From positions 682,001-746,000 of the forward strand of contig NZ_JAPPUY010000002.1 in assembly GCF_026712245.1 (NCBI RefSeq): DNA of 64,000 bases. Reading direction: 5' to 3'. The first letter of the stretch is position 1. Each line of letters starts with the position of its first letter. A program made the translations under genes and the position numbers. Under the pieces are notes generated by a model. It was not told the DNA's origin. It ran no database searches and saw only the letters and a list, made by a program, of their open reading frames with translations. The stretch comes from Roseateles hydrophilus. Lineage in GTDB: Bacteria > Pseudomonadota > Gammaproteobacteria > Burkholderiales > Burkholderiaceae_C. This document shows, one piece after another, positions 33,054-58,206 of the stretch.

Positions 33054-33833
33054 TCAGCCCTGGCCCAGCTCGCGGGCGAACTGGCCCGTGACCGTCTCCA
33101 TGACGGCGAGCAGGTTCTCGCTGGCCGAGAACACGTCGCTGGCGGCCTGGGCCGTGGGGCTCTGGCTGCCCAGTGCGCTTTTCAGGAACACCCACTGGCC
33201 TTGCGCCAGCGCGAGGTTGTCGCGGATGGCGGGCGTGGCCTCAGGCGCGCTGGCCAGCGTGCGCATGGCCTGCTCGAATTCGTTGCTGGACTTGAGGGTC
33301 TCGCGCTGCACGAGGTCAGCGCGTGCCCCCTGCTGGCGCGCCAGGAAGTACAGCGCCAGCCGCTGCGACAGCATGCGCTGACGGCCCGACAGGTTGACCA
33401 GCCGCGCCGTCGCGGCGCTGGAGCGCTCCTGCAGCTGCGTGGTGGCCACGTGGGCGATGCTCAACACTTCGCCGGAGCGCTTGAGCAGCTCGTTGACCTG
33501 CTCGCGGTCGGGCCGGCTCAGCAGCAGCGCGCGGTAGTCGCCGAAGCGGCTCAGCAGGGCCTTGTAGCTGCCGGCGATCTCGGGCGTGGGCGCAAAGGCC
33601 AGCAGCTCGCGCAGCTGCTGCTCGAAGCGGGCGGCGCTGTCGTCCAGCACCTGGCGTGCGCGCGGCGCCAGCTCGGGCTGCAGCTGGCCCAGCCAGGCCT
33701 TGCCCATGCGCTGGCTCAGCATGCGCTGGGCGCCAGCCTTGTCGATGGCGTCTCCCAGCTGGGCGATGCGGGCGTGGGCGGGGAGGGCGAGGCCGGCGCT
33801 CAGGCCGGCCAGCAGCAGGGTGCGTCGTTGCAT
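33054..33833 (-). CDS. Secreted protein with PilJ/NarX-like P-box repeats
   Basis: 259 residues with a signal peptide (MQRRTLLLAGLSAGLALPAHA). The mature part is helical and carries two PilJ N-terminal domain motifs, AGAQRMLSQRM near 33-43 and SGRQRMLSQRL near 149-159. These resemble the P-box (KAGxxRMxSxRL) with which NarX/NarQ bind nitrate. It lies between the flavoprotein and nasA in the nas operon, 18 bases from nasA, so a periplasmic nitrate- or nitrite-binding role is likely. The ANTAR protein at 39134 has the same domain. Confidence 0.8.
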   Translation of the reverse strand: MQRRTLLLAGLSAGLALPAHARIAQLGDAIDKAGAQRMLSQRMGKAWLGQLQPELAPRARQVLDDSAARFEQQLRELLAFAPTPEIAGSYKALLSRFGDYRALLLSRPDREQVNELLKRSGEVLSIAHVATTQLQERSSAATARLVNLSGRQRMLSQRLALYFLARQQGARADLVQRETLKSSNEFEQAMRTLASAPEATPAIRDNLALAQGQWVFLKSALGSQSPTAQAASDVFSASENLLAVMETVTGQFARELGQG

Positions 33834-35131: not shown

Positions 35132-35147
35132 TGCAAGCGATGTGCCA
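35132..35147 (-). promoter_or_regulatory. Sigma-54 promoter of the nas operon
   Basis: On the minus strand TGGCACATCGCTTGCA matches the sigma-54 consensus TGGCACR-N4-TTGCW at every defined position. Predicted start of transcription is near 35121, giving a 27-base leader to the ATG at 35094. It implies nitrogen-limitation control through an NtrC-type activator. Confidence 0.8.
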
Positions 35148-38940: not shown

Positions 38941-39023
38941 CGAGGGGAGGCTCCAGGCGCGACGGCACGAGCCACCCGCGACGTGTGCCAGGGGCGGCAT
39001 CGAGACGTCGCTGCGGGAATGCG

Positions 39024-39041
39024 GCCCGCACCATTGCAGGC
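39024..39041 (-). ncRNA. ANTAR-type hexaloop hairpin in the narK leader
   Basis: On the minus strand GCCTGC-AATGGT-GCGGGC forms a 6-bp stem with a six-base loop having A at 1 and G at 4, the pattern recognised by ANTAR antiterminators. It starts about 7 bases after the predicted transcription start (39047). Its 3' arm can instead pair with CCCGC at 39013-39017, giving a possible switch. A second A1/G4 loop is not convincing in this leader. Confidence 0.55.
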
Positions 39042-39057
39042 AGCGCGTCCGGGTCAT

Positions 39058-39073
39058 TGCAAGCGCCGTGCCC
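39058..39073 (-). promoter_or_regulatory. Sigma-54 promoter of narK
   Basis: On the minus strand GGGCACGGCGCTTGCA differs from consensus only at the first base. Predicted start near 39047 leaves a leader of about 107 bases before the narK ATG, long enough for attenuation. Confidence 0.7.
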
Positions 39074-39090: not shown

Positions 39091-39106
39091 TGGCGCGGTT
39101 CTTGCG
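39091..39106 (+). promoter_or_regulatory. Sigma-54 promoter of the ANTAR-PilJ gene
   Basis: TGGCGCGGTTCTTGCG keeps the GG and GC doublets at -24/-12 with correct spacing; two positions differ from consensus. Predicted start near 39117, 17 bases before the ATG at 39134. Back to back with the narK promoter. Confidence 0.6.
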
Positions 39107-39133: not shown

Positions 39134-40381
39134 ATGTCTGACACCACTGAATCTCCCGCTTCTTCATGGCTGATCTGCAGCCCGGCGCAGCCGCCCCAGG
39201 CTGCCGAACTTGTGGCCCAGGGCTGGGGGCTGCGCACCGTGGCTGCGCTGGAGGCGCCCGCCGATGGGGCGGCCGTCGGCCTGCTGTGGTGCCCCGACTG
39301 CACCACGCTGGATCAGCTGGCGCACCCGGAGCGGGCCTTTGGCTTGCCGGTGGTGCTGCTGTCCCCGGCGCCCGGCGCCGAGCAGCGGCGACGCTTGCTG
39401 GCGCGCGGCGTGCTGCAGTGGTTGCCGCTGGAGGCCGACGCGGCGCTGCTGGCGCAGACGCTGCTGTGGGCGCAGGGCCTGGCGGCTCAGCTGCAGGCTC
39501 GCGACACGGCGGCCCAGGCCAAGCTGGACGAGCGCAAATGGACCGAGCGCGCCAAGGGGCTGCTGATGCAGGCCCGCGGCATCGACGAGGCGGCGGCCTT
39601 CGCGCTGCTGCGCAGCACCGCCATGCAGACCCAGGCCAAGCTGCCCGAGGTGGCGCGCGGCGTGGTGCACACCAGCGAGCTGGCCGAGGCGCTGGAGCGG
39701 GCCGGCGCGCAGCGCATGCTGAGCCAGCGCATGGTGAAGCTGCAGGCGCTGCGGCAGTGGGCCAAGCTCGCGCCGCCCGAGAAGCGCGAGGCGCAGGCGC
39801 TGCTGGACGGCTCGCGCGAGCGCGTGGCGGCCAACCTGGCCCGGCTGGCAGAGCTGCTGCGCCAGGAGCTGGCGGACGAGCTGGCCGCCGTGTCCTCGGC
39901 CTGGGCGCAGCTGGACGCCGCGCTGGCCAGCCGCCAGCCCGACCTGGCGCGCAGCGACCGTGCCGCCCAGCGCCTGCTGGAGAGCAGCGAGGCGCTCGTG
40001 GCGCGGCTGTCCGAGCGCGCCGGCCAGCGCCCGGTGGGCCTGCTGGCCCAGGTCACGCGGCTGCGGCTGCTGAGCCAGCGCCTGGCCAAGGAAGGCCTGC
40101 TGGCCCAGGTGCAGCCCGGCCACGATGTCAGCGGCCTGGCCGCCGGGCTGGACGAGTTCATCAAGGCCTACGACGAGGTGCGCGCCACGCCGTTGGCCGG
40201 CCCGGCGCTGCAGCCCGCCTTTGCCGCCGTGGACGAGGCCTGGCTGGTGCTGCTGCGCGGCCTGCGCGTGGAGCAGGGCGACGCGGTGCAGCGCATGCAC
40301 CAGGGCAGCGAGCGCCTGCTGCAGGCGCTGGAAGAGCTGATCCGCGCGCTGCAGGGCTCGTTGCAGCTCATCCTGGGCTGA
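39134..40381 (+). CDS. ANTAR-domain antiterminator fused to a PilJ/P-box sensor domain
   Basis: 415 residues. About 1-120: degenerate receiver-like domain (no acidic pocket; GLPVVLLSPAPG). About 133-180: ANTAR domain (ERKWTERAKGLLMQARGIDEAAAFALLRSTAM). About 185-415: helical PilJ-type domain with GAQRMLSQRM at 191-200 and a second RLRLLSQRLAK, like the NarX/NarQ nitrate P-box. No signal peptide or membrane helix, so cytosolic. It probably senses nitrate/nitrite and binds leader hairpins of narK and nrt. Compare NasR (NIT-ANTAR): same logic, different sensor. Sigma-54 promoter ahead, divergent from narK. Confidence 0.85.
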   Translation: MSDTTESPASSWLICSPAQPPQAAELVAQGWGLRTVAALEAPADGAAVGLLWCPDCTTLDQLAHPERAFGLPVVLLSPAPGAEQRRRLLARGVLQWLPLEADAALLAQTLLWAQGLAAQLQARDTAAQAKLDERKWTERAKGLLMQARGIDEAAAFALLRSTAMQTQAKLPEVARGVVHTSELAEALERAGAQRMLSQRMVKLQALRQWAKLAPPEKREAQALLDGSRERVAANLARLAELLRQELADELAAVSSAWAQLDAALASRQPDLARSDRAAQRLLESSEALVARLSERAGQRPVGLLAQVTRLRLLSQRLAKEGLLAQVQPGHDVSGLAAGLDEFIKAYDEVRATPLAGPALQPAFAAVDEAWLVLLRGLRVEQGDAVQRMHQGSERLLQALEELIRALQGSLQLILG

Positions 40382-54095: not shown

Positions 54096-54111
54096 AGGCA
54101 CGCTTATTGCA
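54096..54111 (+). promoter_or_regulatory. Sigma-54 promoter of the NasT-like gene
   Basis: AGGCACGCTTATTGCA differs from consensus only at the first base. The predicted start, near 54122, falls two bases before the ATG at 54124, which would make the mRNA leaderless unless the true initiation is different. Confidence 0.6.
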
Positions 54112-54123
54112 CTACGTCCGTGC

Positions 54124-54744
54124 ATGGACACGCCCTCATTCCCCCTGCCGGGCCTGCGCGTGCTGCTGGCGGATGCCGGCCAGCGCCGCAGCCCGGTCAT
54201 CCGCCTGGAGCTCATCCGGCTGCGCTGCCAGCTCGTTGATGTGCTGGATCTTGTCGCCGAGCCCGACGCGCTGGCGCTCACGCTGGCCCGCCAGGCGCCC
54301 GAGCTGCTGTTGATCGACTGCGAGCAGCCCACACCGGCGCTGCTGGCGCAGCTGTCCGAGGCGCAGGCCCGCCAGCCACGGCCGGTGCTGCTGGTGGCCG
54401 AGCAGATGTCGCCCGCGCAGATGCGCGCGGCGCTGCAGGCCGGCGTCAGCGCGCTGCAGCTGGCCGGGCTGCCGCCGCAGCGCCTGGGCGCGCTGCTGCA
54501 GCTGGCGCTGGCCCGCTTCGAGCATGACCAGGCGCTGCACGCCGAGCTGCGCCACACCCAGACCCAGCTGGCCGAGCGCAAGCTGGTGGAGCGCGCGCGC
54601 GGCATCCTGATGCGTGAGCAGGGGCTGGACGAGGAGGCCGCCTTCCAGCGCCTGCGCCAGCTGGCCATGACGGGCGGCCAGACGCTGGCCAGCGTGGCCT
54701 CGCGCCTCATCGACGCCGACCAGCTGCTGCGCCCGCGCCAGTAG
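54124..54744 (+). CDS. NasT-like ANTAR response regulator
   Basis: 206 residues. N-terminal receiver-like domain (LRVLLADAGQRR, ELLLIDCEQP, VLLVAEQMS) with the lysine position replaced, so phosphorylation is doubtful. ANTAR domain about 150-200: LAERKLVERARGILMREQGLDEEAAFQRLRQLAM. Such proteins bind paired hexaloop hairpins to block termination in nitrate genes. It lies 360 bases upstream of nrtABC on the same strand. A NasS-type nitrate sensor, its usual partner, is not seen; NrtA has a signal sequence and would not be cytosolic. Confidence 0.88.
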   Translation: MDTPSFPLPGLRVLLADAGQRRSPVIRLELIRLRCQLVDVLDLVAEPDALALTLARQAPELLLIDCEQPTPALLAQLSEAQARQPRPVLLVAEQMSPAQMRAALQAGVSALQLAGLPPQRLGALLQLALARFEHDQALHAELRHTQTQLAERKLVERARGILMREQGLDEEAAFQRLRQLAMTGGQTLASVASRLIDADQLLRPRQ

Positions 54745-54912
54745 CCCGGCGCGCACCGCGATCGCGCGCCTTCTCCGCCTTGGGGCGCCACGCACCAACA
54801 TTCACGACCCCTGCACGAACGGGAACGCACCGGCATTGCGCAAACCGCACGCCGGGGCGGCCGCATGGCGCCAAGCGTGTGCGAAAGCAGCGCGTCAGCA
54901 GCACGCAAAAGC
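54745..54912 (+). other. Upstream region of the nrt promoter
   Basis: No gene seen. GCACC half-sites near 54792 and 54827 could belong to NtrC sites, but no full palindrome is present. Together with the promoter and leader it makes up the 359-base gap before nrtA. Confidence 0.35.
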
Positions 54913-54928
54913 TGGCACGCAACCTGCT
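54913..54928 (+). promoter_or_regulatory. Sigma-54 promoter of the nrt operon
   Basis: TGGCACGCAACCTGCT matches TGGCACR-N4-TTGCW at all but one base (C for T at the start of the -12 box). Predicted start near 54939, exactly at the foot of the leader hairpin that begins at 54940. Confidence 0.7.
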
Positions 54929-54939
54929 GAAAGAAGGGC

Positions 54940-55012
54940 GAGGCCTGCAATGGCGCAGGCCTCTCGGGCCAGCCGGCATTGACTCGGCTGGCACTTCGGG
55001 ACAACGGCGTCC
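54940..55012 (+). ncRNA. ANTAR-type antiterminator leader of nrtABC
   Basis: First hairpin 54940-54963: GAGGCCTGC-AATGGC-GCAGGCCTC, a perfect 9-bp stem with a six-base loop, A at 1 and G at 4. Second hexaloop 54999-55012: GGAC-AACGGC-GTCC, again A1 and G4. Between them is an 8-bp hairpin (54968-54992, GCCAGCCG with CGGCTGGC). Paired A1/G4 hexaloops are the known ANTAR target. No T-rich terminator is visible before nrtA, so any attenuation may be Rho-dependent. The first stem shares its core (GCCTGCAATGG) with the narK leader. Confidence 0.65.
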
Positions 55013-55103
55013 GACCTCCCCCATTGCATCCTCGCTGCTGGCCAGCGTGGGCGAGCGCGTGGCCGCGACGGCGTTGAGCCCCAGATTGACTCAGGAGCCC
55101 GTG

Positions 55104-56354
55104 ATGACCGCCTTCGATAACTCGACGACCACGCCCCACCCGCAGCGCCGCAGCCTGCTCGCCGCCGCGGCCGCCTTGCCCTTCGCCGGCCTTGCCGGTG
55201 GCGGCTGGGCGCAGGGCTCCGACAAGCCCGAAAAGGAAGAAGTCAAGATCGGCTTCATCCCGCTGACCGACTGCGCCAGCGTCGTGATGGCCTCGGTGCT
55301 GGGCTTCGACAAGAAGTACGGCATCAAGATCATCCCCACCAAGGAAGCCTCCTGGGCCGGCGTGCGGGACAAGCTGGTCAACGGCGAGCTGGACATGTCG
55401 CACGTGCTGTATGGCCTGATCTACGGCGTGCACCTCGGCCTGGGCGGTCCCAAGAAGGACATGGCCATGCTGATGAACCTGAACAACAACGGTCAGGCCA
55501 TCACGCTGTCCAAGGCCCTGGCCGACAAGGGCGCGGTGGACGGCCCGTCGCTGGCCAAGGTGATGGCCGCCAACCCGCGTGAGTACACCTTCGCCGGCAC
55601 CTTCCCGACCGGCACGCACGCGATGTGGATGCACTACTGGCTGGCCGCCGCGGGCATCAACCCGTTGAGCGGCGCCAAGCTCATCACCGTGCCGCCGCCG
55701 CAGATGGTGGCCAACATGCGCGTGGGCAACATGGACGGCTTCTGCGTCGGTGAGCCCTGGAACCACCGCGCCATCATGGACGGCATCGGCATCACCGCCA
55801 ACACGACGCAGGACGTCTGGAAGGACCATCCCGAGAAGGTGCTGGGCACGACGGCCGAGTTCGTCAAGAAGTACCCCAACACCTGCCGCGCCGTGATCAT
55901 GGCCGTGCTGGAGGCCAGCCGCTGGATCGACGCCAGCCTGTCCAACAAGCTCAAGATGGCCGAGACGGTGGCGCAGAAGGCCTACATCAACACCGGCGTC
56001 GATGCGATCAACCAGCGCATCCTGGGCCGCTACCAGAACGGCCTGGGCAAGACCTGGGACGACCCCAACCACATGAAGTTCTTCAACGACGGCGCGGTGA
56101 ACTACCCGTATCTGTCGGACGGCATGTGGTTCCTGACCCAGCACAAGCGCTGGGGCCTGCTGAAGAGCCACCCCGACTACCTGGGCGTGGCCAAGCAGAT
56201 CAACCAGACGGCGCTCTACAAGCAGGCGGCCGGCGCCCTCGGCATCAGCATCCCCAAGAGTGACTTCCGCAGCGCCAAGCTGATGGACGGCGTGGTGTGG
56301 GACGGCAAGGACCCGGCGAAGTACGCCGACAGCTTCAAGATCAAGGCGGCCTGA
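55104..56354 (+). CDS. nrtA: Nitrate ABC transporter substrate-binding protein
   Basis: 416 residues. Twin-arginine type export signal (PQRRSLLAAAAALPFAGLAGGGWA). KIGFIPLTDCASVVMASVLGFDKKYG, GTHAMWMHYWLAAAGI, PPPQMVANMRVGNMDGFCVGEPWN and FVKKYPNTCRAVI are NrtA/NasF hallmarks; the WN and K/H residues surround the nitrate site. AGGAG lies 7 bases ahead of the chosen ATG. First gene of the nrt operon with a structured leader. Confidence 0.95.
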   Translation: MTAFDNSTTTPHPQRRSLLAAAAALPFAGLAGGGWAQGSDKPEKEEVKIGFIPLTDCASVVMASVLGFDKKYGIKIIPTKEASWAGVRDKLVNGELDMSHVLYGLIYGVHLGLGGPKKDMAMLMNLNNNGQAITLSKALADKGAVDGPSLAKVMAANPREYTFAGTFPTGTHAMWMHYWLAAAGINPLSGAKLITVPPPQMVANMRVGNMDGFCVGEPWNHRAIMDGIGITANTTQDVWKDHPEKVLGTTAEFVKKYPNTCRAVIMAVLEASRWIDASLSNKLKMAETVAQKAYINTGVDAINQRILGRYQNGLGKTWDDPNHMKFFNDGAVNYPYLSDGMWFLTQHKRWGLLKSHPDYLGVAKQINQTALYKQAAGALGISIPKSDFRSAKLMDGVVWDGKDPAKYADSFKIKAA

Positions 56355-56356
56355 TC

Positions 56357-57271
56357 ATGGTTTCAGCAGTTTTCCATTCGCCGCGGGACACCGCCTCGCC
56401 CGCTGCCAGCGCAGCGGCCACGCCGGTGGCTGCGGTCAGCCGCCCCGCCAGCCCCGCTGCCGAGCAGGCCAAGCCCAAGCCGCCCCGGCGGCCGTTTGAC
56501 GGTCGCGGCCTGGCGCTGCGCGTGCTGCCGCCGGTGCTCAGCATCGCGCTGCTCATCGGGCTGTGGGCGCTGGCCACGATGAAAGGCGGCTCGTTTCCAA
56601 CCCCGGCGGCCACCTTCGATGCCGCCGTGCAGCTGTTCTCAGATCCGTTCTACCGCAACGGTCCGAACGACCAAGGCATAGGCTGGAACATCCTGAATTC
56701 GCTGGGCCGCGTGGGCATGGGCTTCGGCCTGGCCGCGCTCGTTGGCATCCCGCTGGGCTTCATCATCGGCCGCTTCGAGTTCGCCAGCCGCATGGTGTCG
56801 CCGCTGATCGCGCTGCTCAAGCCGGTGTCGCCGCTGGCCTGGCTGCCCATCGGCCTGCTGGCGTTCAAGAGCGCCAACCCGGCAGCCATCTGGACCATCT
56901 TCATCTGCTCCATCTGGCCCATGGTGGTGAACACGGCGGTGGGCGTGCAGCGCGTGCCGCAGGACTACCTGAACGTCGCCCGCGTGCTCAAGCTCAGCGA
57001 GTGGAAGGTCATCACGCGCATCCTGCTGCCCGCGGTGCTGCCCTATGTGCTGACCGGCGTGCGCCTGTCGGTGGGCACGGCCTGGCTGGTCATCGTCGCG
57101 GCCGAGATGCTGACCGGCGGCGTGGGCATCGGCTTCTGGGTCTGGGACGAGTGGAACAACCTGAACGTCGCGCACATCATCATCGCCATCGTCGTCATCG
57201 GCACCGTCGGGCTGTTGCTCGAGTGGCTGCTGCTGACGCTGGCCAAGCAGTTCACGTTCGACGATCACTAG
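56357..57271 (+). CDS. nrtB: Nitrate ABC transporter permease
   Basis: 304 residues. A 45-residue alanine/proline-rich N-terminus precedes six membrane helices. The EAA loop is seen in LNVARVLKLSEWKVITRILLPAVLPYVLTG; AEMLTGGVGIGFWVWDEWNNLN is characteristic of the NrtB/SsuC group. Starts 2 bases after the nrtA stop. Its stop is followed at once by repeat copy C. Confidence 0.93.
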   Translation: MVSAVFHSPRDTASPAASAAATPVAAVSRPASPAAEQAKPKPPRRPFDGRGLALRVLPPVLSIALLIGLWALATMKGGSFPTPAATFDAAVQLFSDPFYRNGPNDQGIGWNILNSLGRVGMGFGLAALVGIPLGFIIGRFEFASRMVSPLIALLKPVSPLAWLPIGLLAFKSANPAAIWTIFICSIWPMVVNTAVGVQRVPQDYLNVARVLKLSEWKVITRILLPAVLPYVLTGVRLSVGTAWLVIVAAEMLTGGVGIGFWVWDEWNNLNVAHIIIAIVVIGTVGLLLEWLLLTLAKQFTFDDH

Positions 57272-57402: not shown

Positions 57403-58206
57403 ATGACCGCACGCCCCTTCATTCAAGTCCAGAACGCCGAGATGGTGTTCACCACCCGCAAGGGCCGTTTCCATGCGCTGCAGAACGTCAGCCTGGACGT
57501 GCAGCGCGGCGAGTTCATCACGCTGATCGGCCACTCGGGCTGCGGCAAGTCCACGCTGCTCAACCTCATCGCCGGCCTGCTGACGCCCACCGAGGGCGCG
57601 CTGATCTGTGACGGCCGCGAGATTGCCGCGCCCGGCCCCGAGCGCGCCGTCGTGTTCCAGAACCACTCGCTGCTGCCCTGGCTGTCCTGCATGGACAACG
57701 TGCTGCTGGCGGTGGAGTCGGTGTTCGGTGGCAAGGAGAGCGCTGCCCAGCTCAAGGTGCGCGCCCGCGCCGCGCTGGAGCTGGTGGGCATGAGCCATGC
57801 GCTGCACAAACGCCCGCACGAGATCTCGGGTGGCATGAAGCAGCGCGTGGGCATCGCCCGGGCGCTGGCCATGGAGCCCAAGGTGCTGCTGATGGACGAG
57901 CCCTTCGGCGCGCTGGACGCGCTGACCCGCGCCAAGCTGCAGGACGAGCTGCTGAAGATCGTTGCCCGCACGCAGAGCACGGTCATCATGGTCACGCACG
58001 ACGTCGACGAGGCCGTGCTGCTGAGCGACCGCATCGTCATGATGACCAACGGCCCGGCCGCCACCATCGGCGAGATCCTGGCGGTGGACATTCCCCGCCC
58101 GCGCGTGCGGGTGGAGCTGGCGGAAGACGCACGCTACATCGCCGCCCGCAAGGAGGTCATCGACTTCCTCTACACGCGGCACGCCCACGTCGAGCAGGCT
58201 GCCTGA
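57403..58206 (+). CDS. nrtC: Nitrate ABC transporter ATP-binding protein
   Basis: 267 residues. Walker A GHSGCGKST near 45, Q-loop VVFQNHSLLPWLSCMDNVLLAV, signature EISGGMKQRVGIARALA, Walker B VLLMDEPFGALD and H-loop VTHDVDEAVLLSDRIVMMTNGPAATIGE, as in NrtD/NasD. It has no C-terminal NrtA-like regulatory domain as in cyanobacterial NrtC, so it is equally well called NrtD/NasD. AGGAG precedes the ATG. Confidence 0.92.
   Translation: MTARPFIQVQNAEMVFTTRKGRFHALQNVSLDVQRGEFITLIGHSGCGKSTLLNLIAGLLTPTEGALICDGREIAAPGPERAVVFQNHSLLPWLSCMDNVLLAVESVFGGKESAAQLKVRARAALELVGMSHALHKRPHEISGGMKQRVGIARALAMEPKVLLMDEPFGALDALTRAKLQDELLKIVARTQSTVIMVTHDVDEAVLLSDRIVMMTNGPAATIGEILAVDIPRPRVRVELAEDARYIAARKEVIDFLYTRHAHVEQAA

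Follow-up and report, generated by a model that had tools for sequence, protein, structure and literature searches.

A predicted sigma-54-driven ANTAR leader with a U-poor competing stem upstream of nrtABC in Roseateles hydrophilus

Main finding

The leader of the nrtABC operon in the 64,000-nt stretch of DNA analyzed here (the window) is very probably a sigma-54-driven ANTAR antitermination leader that places nitrate uptake behind two gates. At the first gate, nitrogen limitation would act through NtrC, bound at two upstream boxes, to activate sigma-54 polymerase at 54913–54927, where the sites are read from the sequence and their activation is presumed; transcription would start at ~54939. 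At the second gate, a nitrate-activated ANTAR protein would bind the hexaloops of two hairpins, P1 and P2, and keep P2 closed. With P2 held, a competing stem would be blocked and polymerase would continue into nrtABC, while in the absence of inducer the competing stem would form and elongation would stop early. Binding, the nitrate signal and the sign of the effect are carried over by analogy with NasR, NasT and EutV. The original prediction was of sigma-54 initiation directly into an ANTAR leader; the promoter, the NtrC-like boxes and the dual hexaloops bear this out, but the stem that competes with P2 had been overlooked. The rule that uptake genes would follow, 'nitrogen-starved AND nitrate present', thereby becomes readable from sequence.

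Genes and ANTAR proteins

The leader precedes nrtA (55104–56354, plus strand), encoding a nitrate ABC transporter binding protein with a twin-arginine motif (NMT1_2, E = 6.9e-99), followed on the same strand by genes for the permease NrtB (56357–57271; TIGR01183 over cut-off) and the ATPase NrtC (57403–58206; TIGR01184 over cut-off). The five best full-length named relatives of NrtA come from Roseateles and Pelomonas, at 89–93% identity. Just upstream of the leader, where an ANTAR gene had been predicted, lies the gene for ANTAR protein 2 (54124–54744, plus strand; 180 nt upstream of the promoter), a NasT/AmiR-like protein of 206 aa with a Pfam ANTAR domain at residues 144–196 (E = 2.2e-17). 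Pfam found neither a receiver nor a sensor domain in this protein; phmmer matched it to PDB entries 1s8n over residues 25–196 and 6wsh over residues 54–197, which we take to be Rv1626 and EutV, respectively. ANTAR protein 1 (39134–40381, plus strand), encoded divergently from a NarK-type transporter, carries an ANTAR domain (residues 127–178) and then a PilJ domain (182–277) and is a candidate nitrate-sensing regulator. Across the whole genome, two ANTAR genes scored above the Pfam cut-off and one match fell below it. Of the PF13379 (NrtA-like) proteins in the assembly, which is 98.7% complete, the two strong ones were screened for a signal-less NasS and yielded none, both carrying a twin-arginine motif by eye; two other matches were weaker.

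The ANTAR protein 2 gene has a sigma-54-like site of its own (AGGCACGCTTATTGC, within 54096–54126) with a predicted start just 2 nt ahead of the ATG, which might give an almost leaderless mRNA; sites of this type, GGCAC-N5-TTGC at 11–16 nt ahead of an ATG, occur at 12 of 16 genus loci. A stand-alone PilJ protein with a twin-arginine-like start (33054–33833, minus strand) is encoded between NirB-like and nitrate reductase genes and has the PilJ domain in common with ANTAR protein 1.

Promoter and NtrC-like boxes

A near-consensus sigma-54 promoter had been predicted at 54913–54928, and a −24/−12 element is read directly at 54913–54927 on the plus strand (TGGCACG-CAAC-CTGC, TGGCACGCAACCTGC), with the sigma-54 dinucleotides GG at 54914–54915 and GC at 54926–54927 in 10-nt spacing. 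The usual promoter spacing puts the predicted +1 at 54939, so that P1 would form the 5′ end of the RNA. The exact pattern TGGCACGN4YTGC occurs only here in the window; with at most one mismatch it occurs 10 times against 10.4 expected, and the promoter taken alone is therefore weak evidence. It is 98% conserved across 15 aligned leaders of the genus.

Farther upstream on the plus strand, NtrC-like box 1 (54826–54842; CGCACCGGCATTGCGCA) has 9 of 12 letters of what we take to be the NtrC consensus, and box 2 (54867–54883; GGCGCCAAGCGTGTGCG), spotted by eye, has 8 of 12 by hand count; the counterpart of box 2 in relatives such as L058, TGCGCCAAGCGCGTGCA, has 10 of 12. Of 79 regions, 75% hold a box with at least 9 of 12 letters within 130 nt upstream, as opposed to 6% of shuffles, which preserve base content only. 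From these matches the two boxes are predicted NtrC sites.

Two hexaloop hairpins

The perfect 9-bp hairpin and the second, small hairpin of the original prediction were both read directly on the plus strand. P1 (54940–54963; GAGGCCTGC-AATGGC-GCAGGCCTC) has 9 bp and the loop AAUGGC; P2 (54999–55012; GGAC-AACGGC-GTCC) has 4 bp and the loop AACGGC. Between them lies a further hairpin, H2 (54968–54992, plus strand; 9 bp, 7-nt loop), which carries no ANTAR hexaloop and, like the competing stem, was absent from the original prediction. Both the P1 and P2 loops have A at position 1 and G at position 4, as had been pointed out, together with a closing C:G pair, giving the leader a dual hexaloop; the same A1/G4 consensus loop and closing pair were also found by NasR SELEX, according to passages of PMC7496416. 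The pair of hairpins is more than a chance occurrence: for the P1 pattern with at most three mismatches, chance predicts 0.04 occurrences in the window, and the P2 pattern GGACANNGNNGTCC occurs once against 0.07 expected.

The segment 54937–55024 folds at −44.9 kcal/mol, compared with −35.4 (s.d. 3.6) for shuffles (z = −2.64; 3 of 200 shuffles equally good). P2 is missing from the minimum-energy fold (RNAfold), which counts against the preferred explanation; its pair probabilities are 0.04–0.07, with 0.29 for the competing stem and >0.95 for P1.

Among the 15 aligned genus leaders (the divergent L148, with a T-rich tail, was left out), loop 1 is AATGGC in every case and loop 2 is AACGGC in 14 and AACGAC in one. 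The loops and P2 are 97–99.5% conserved versus 53% for the spacer before P1 and 67% for the competing-stem loop. P1 is 95.6% paired within the genus but shows no covariation, with seven of nine pairs invariant, which again speaks against the preferred explanation; H2 is paired in 97.8% of cells and has two pairs with both sides changed. Across 24 leaders from outside the genus, pairing in the stems of P1 and P2 reaches 94.0%, and both sides have changed in 8 of 12 pairs (48 double-changed cells, against 11.9 in shuffles).

Survey of relatives

The 450 nt upstream of nrtA were compared in 80 regions, one from the window and 79 from named loci (an eightieth locus, L074, was excluded because its upstream sequence is too short), with P2 called by the fixed rule GAC[ANNGNN]GTC. 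The promoter was present in 77 regions, P1 in 63, P2 in 57 and both hairpins in 44; in 1,600 dinucleotide shuffles the corresponding counts were 591, 16, 0 and 0. The hexaloops are thus conserved in relatives, as had been anticipated, although the fixed rules leave 17 of 80 regions without P1 and 23 without P2. Three promoter-less Comamonas regions (L103, L105 and L109), for which the hairpin rule returns nothing, carry P2, as GGGACAACGGCGTCC, and a T-rich tail. A P2-like loop starting with G (GAYGRC) occurs in nine of the 80 regions (L064, L072, L073, L076, L086, L104, L121, L122 and L127), most of which have P1 with A1 and G4 kept; L071, L083 and L114 have a P2-like loop in neither the A-start nor the G-start form. 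Of 20 genus genomes, 16 yielded nrtA at the threshold used. At L025 (1502–1608, minus strand), three successive A1/G4 hexaloop hairpins were seen by eye after a sigma-54 site, the usual number being two.

The competing stem and its eroded T-run

Downstream of P1 and H2, the 5′ arm of the competing stem (55003–55016, plus strand) overlaps the loop and 3′ arm of P2 (shared bases 55003–55012) and pairs with a 3′ arm at 55061–55075 (plus strand), which is followed by GAGCCCCAG and no T-run. From pairing and covariation, P2 and the stem are predicted to exclude each other, since the P2 loop and 3′ arm are common to both. In the 15 genus leaders the stem (alignment columns 93–106 with 154–168) is paired in 92.3% of cells and has two pairs with compensatory changes; RNAalifold adds three further basal pairs, one of them double-changed in five sequences, and the stem of the window itself has two broken pairs.

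In all 57 P2-bearing regions, 8 or more of the 10 bases from the start of the P2 loop onward pair with a downstream arm. Apart from the genus-type leaders there are 49 such regions; 47 of them have a T-rich tail (≥6 T in 12 nt) at the stem end, the two exceptions being L113 (5 T) and L126 (mis-anchored), and the T-tailed stem of these relatives is probably an ordinary terminator that would be blocked while P2 is closed. The eight genus-type leaders have 2, 2, 4, 4, 4, 5, 6 and 7 T per 12 nt, with 2 in the window; some members of the genus, such as L082 and L129, keep interrupted T-runs, and the divergent L148 has a T-rich tail. In the genus, then, the T-run appears to have worn down or disappeared, whereas the stem still stands where relatives have the terminator. 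A pattern search of the leader found no T-rich terminator on the plus strand, in line with what had first been noticed, and the tail in the window, with its 2 T, lacks the U-run of an intrinsic terminator. The missing T-run had also suggested attenuation by Rho. Its absence stands, but by itself it does not imply Rho, because an exclusive stem overlaps P2, and at that stem a T-rich terminator is present in almost every P2-bearing relative from outside the genus. The series of T-runs that are present, interrupted or absent offers natural material on the role of an antiterminator once the terminator is no longer intrinsic.

A single loss of the T-run is not supported: a quick NrtA tree (SH-aLRT only; the tail of L058 was mis-anchored) shows four state changes, and near-identical leaders occur in two NrtA lineages. 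These are L142 (whose leader is the same as that of L061) and L149, which stand before NrtA of two separate tree lineages, as if leader and coding region had separate histories.

Alternative explanations

With the stem retained and its T-run worn away, stopping in the genus probably needs other means, either Rho or a U-poor hairpin terminator, and both are forms of the preferred explanation with its last step fixed. It is possible, and we put it forward tentatively, that the C-rich stretch following P2 serves as the loading site for Rho, that the U-less stem only makes polymerase pause and that ANTAR binding prevents the stop. Such attenuation would fit the erosion of the T-run in the genus and the C-minus-G excess in the 35 nt after P2, which averages 7.1 over the eight genus-type leaders and 1.6 over 59 other leaders (Mann–Whitney P = 1.6e-4, kinship ignored). 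However, the free stretch is short (~50 nt) with translation starting at 55104, and L148, from the same genus, has its T-rich tail. That the competing stem itself ends transcription, helped by NusA or NusG, is unlikely. Although compensatory changes keep the stem, its base is extended in the genus consensus and interrupted T-runs are found in L082 and L129, the tail in the window has 2 T, the stem there contains two mismatches and the pattern search of the plus strand gave no terminator.

Passages of PMC8164766 describe actinobacterial ANTAR RNAs that act on translation and lack a U-run terminator, and the stem here ends near a Shine–Dalgarno-like AGGAG (55093–55097), so that ANTAR binding or the stem might alter how accessible the nrtA start is, along the lines proposed for actinobacteria; this is improbable, as the stem ends at 55075 (55081 with the extra pairs), leaving AGGAG free by position, and relatives have a T-tailed terminator at the same place. 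We consider it quite improbable that the leader is a decayed attenuator, its terminator lost, its read-through constitutive and its hairpins relics: T-run loss and broken pairs would agree with decay, but not the conservation of the loops and P2 (97–99.5%, against 53–67% in spacer and loop regions) or the compensatory change in the competing stem. Scarcely credible is a role of P1 as a DNA site or minus-strand terminator and no ANTAR target. P1 followed by GCCCTTCTTT does reach a terminator-like score on that strand, yet shuffles yield 0.7 such sites per region, and the P1 loop is conserved besides the arms, which covary across genera.

Covariance models and genome searches

For searches centered on the ANTAR leader, a covariance model (R1) was built from 24 leaders outside the genus, 14 of the 38 tried having been dropped (6 for long or extra spacing, 3 for misalignment, 3 for faulty extraction and 2 because they were not found); R2 is R1 without its promoter columns, and the E values of both are rough. 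A covariance-model search of the window had been proposed as a check, and R1 recovered 54913–55012 with a score of 45.8 bits; the E value was 8.9e-10 within the window and 6.7e-8 genome-wide, where this is the top match. The RNA-only R2 scored the leader at 29.3 bits (E = 2.2e-8 and 1.6e-6, top in both). Of 200 order-level genomes, 63 gave R1 matches (E ≤ 1e-3), as did 41 of 369 class-level genomes (E ≤ 1e-4); both counts include the genome of the window. At order level, an ANTAR gene was present in 61 of the 63 R1-positive genomes compared with 37 of 137 others (kinship ignored), and in 47 of 49 R1-positive genomes once the 14 training genomes were removed; the two exceptions among R1-positive genomes are G140 and the 67%-complete G161. 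Thirty-eight of 80 R1 matches lie at most 500 nt 3′ of a same-strand ANTAR gene.

Two further matches were rejected. One in the same genome (C1:1235940; R1 19.1 and R2 18.9 bits) runs antisense within a peptidase-like frame and was taken as chance, and an R1 match at 35147–35053 on the minus strand has a sigma-54-like site, but its hairpin segment lies at the beginning of the NirB-like frame.

Two related leaders were also seen. Upstream of the NarK-type transporter (39003–39073, minus strand; R1 17.2 bits, E = 0.0082) there is a sigma-54 site at 39059–39073 and a P1-like hairpin at 39024–39041 with the loop AAUGGU, and no P2 or second hexaloop was found in this leader or at the genus loci. 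GC[AATGGT]GC recurs in 12 of 13 NarK loci of the genus (L189–L201), seven of which have at least five contiguous pairs; the fold of the NarK leader closes an A-U pair inside the loop AAUGGU and, with z = −1.18, is not better than shuffles allow. On contig C8 (L152, ~1500–1610), a nirB-like leader combines the sigma-54-like GGGCATGGCTTTTGC with the single hexaloop hairpin tcgcc[AACGGC]ggcga (R1 25.1 bits, E = 0.007). An R2 search of window and genome found neither leader, so their candidacy as ANTAR targets rests on P1 and promoter. One-mismatch sigma-54-like sites also occur at 39091–39105 (plus strand, before the ANTAR-PilJ gene) and 35133–35147 (minus strand, before the NirB-like gene), where chance gives ten per window.

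Relation to the Rfam narK RNA

The Rfam narK RNA (RF03032) appears to be the same sigma-54-driven ANTAR leader arrangement as found at nrtABC. Its consensus reads GGCAC-N5-UUGC, a 7-bp hairpin with loop AACGGC and then CGAC[AAAGAC]GUCG, that is, a −24/−12 promoter and two ANTAR hexaloops, as in the window leader; it differs in that the model leaves the second hexaloop, corresponding to P2, unpaired and treats promoter DNA as RNA. With cmscan, RF03032 aligned over 54914–54979 at 16.8 bits (E = 2) against a curated threshold of 43.2; at the Rfam gathering score there was no match in the window, and the leader is not assigned to the family. Matches to RF03032 were found in 23 of 200 order-level genomes, three of them above the curated score, and an ANTAR gene was present in all 23 versus 75 of 177 others (kinship ignored). 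Fourteen of the 23 matches lie at most 500 nt 3′ of a same-strand ANTAR gene; all 23 are overlapped by R1 matches, and 14 of them served in R1 training. The narK RNA family thereby gains a testable protein partner and mechanism, and the boundary between promoter and RNA within the family is shown. The narK motif reportedly originates with Weinberg et al. 2017. No link between RF03032 and ANTAR was found in the literature searched; the original motif description lay outside that search and may already mention ANTAR.

In passages of PMC6759348, NasT-type hairpins are predicted ahead of Bradyrhizobium narK, whose expression rose in a nasT mutant, and the Rfam name does not appear in those passages. 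The sign of the ANTAR effect is therefore not safe to assume, and this result, together with the nine G-start loops, slightly lowers the odds both of the preferred explanation and of the reading that joins Rho and narK RNA. That joint reading is possible but doubtful: narK RNA would be the ANTAR antiterminator leader found at sigma-54-driven nitrate operons, with promoter DNA making up the opening part of its model, and one lineage of the genus would have swapped a T-tailed terminator for a covarying stem that is U-less and accompanied by a C-rich stretch, leaving an ANTAR protein to govern Rho-type termination. ANTAR control of factor-dependent (Rho-type) termination was not found in the ANTAR literature searched.

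Comparison with known systems

Double control by nitrogen status and ANTAR is not new: nas operons of Klebsiella and Paracoccus with such a dual gate are already described, which makes the leader a variant of an existing kind. Klebsiella nasF, in the passages of PMC5424462 and PMC7496416, likewise joins Ntr control to nitrate-responsive ANTAR antitermination and has two A1/G4 hexaloop hairpins, the second overlapping the terminator. It differs in having an intrinsic terminator where the T-run is gone here, and in its NIT-ANTAR sensor protein NasR, whereas Pfam detected no sensor domain in ANTAR protein 2. Paracoccus nasA, as covered in parts of PMC5424462 and PMC3795266, also has a NasT-type ANTAR gene ahead of leader hairpins and involves NtrBC; in contrast, it has a signal-less NasS sensor, none being found here among the two strong PF13379 proteins, and the target here is an ABC uptake operon. 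EutV and eutP share the P1/P2 hexaloops and an antiterminator that excludes the terminator, but respond to ethanolamine through a phosphorylated two-component regulator (passages of PMC3369931, PMC8934654 and PMC7496416). ANTAR RNAs ahead of nitrate transporters and in Burkholderia are reported by Ramesh et al., and passages of a 2025 survey (PMC12316311) predict sigma-54 promoters for nitrate ABC transport and ANTAR genes. The logic itself is known; what is added here is its compact form at nrtABC, the narK RNA identity and the U-less stem.
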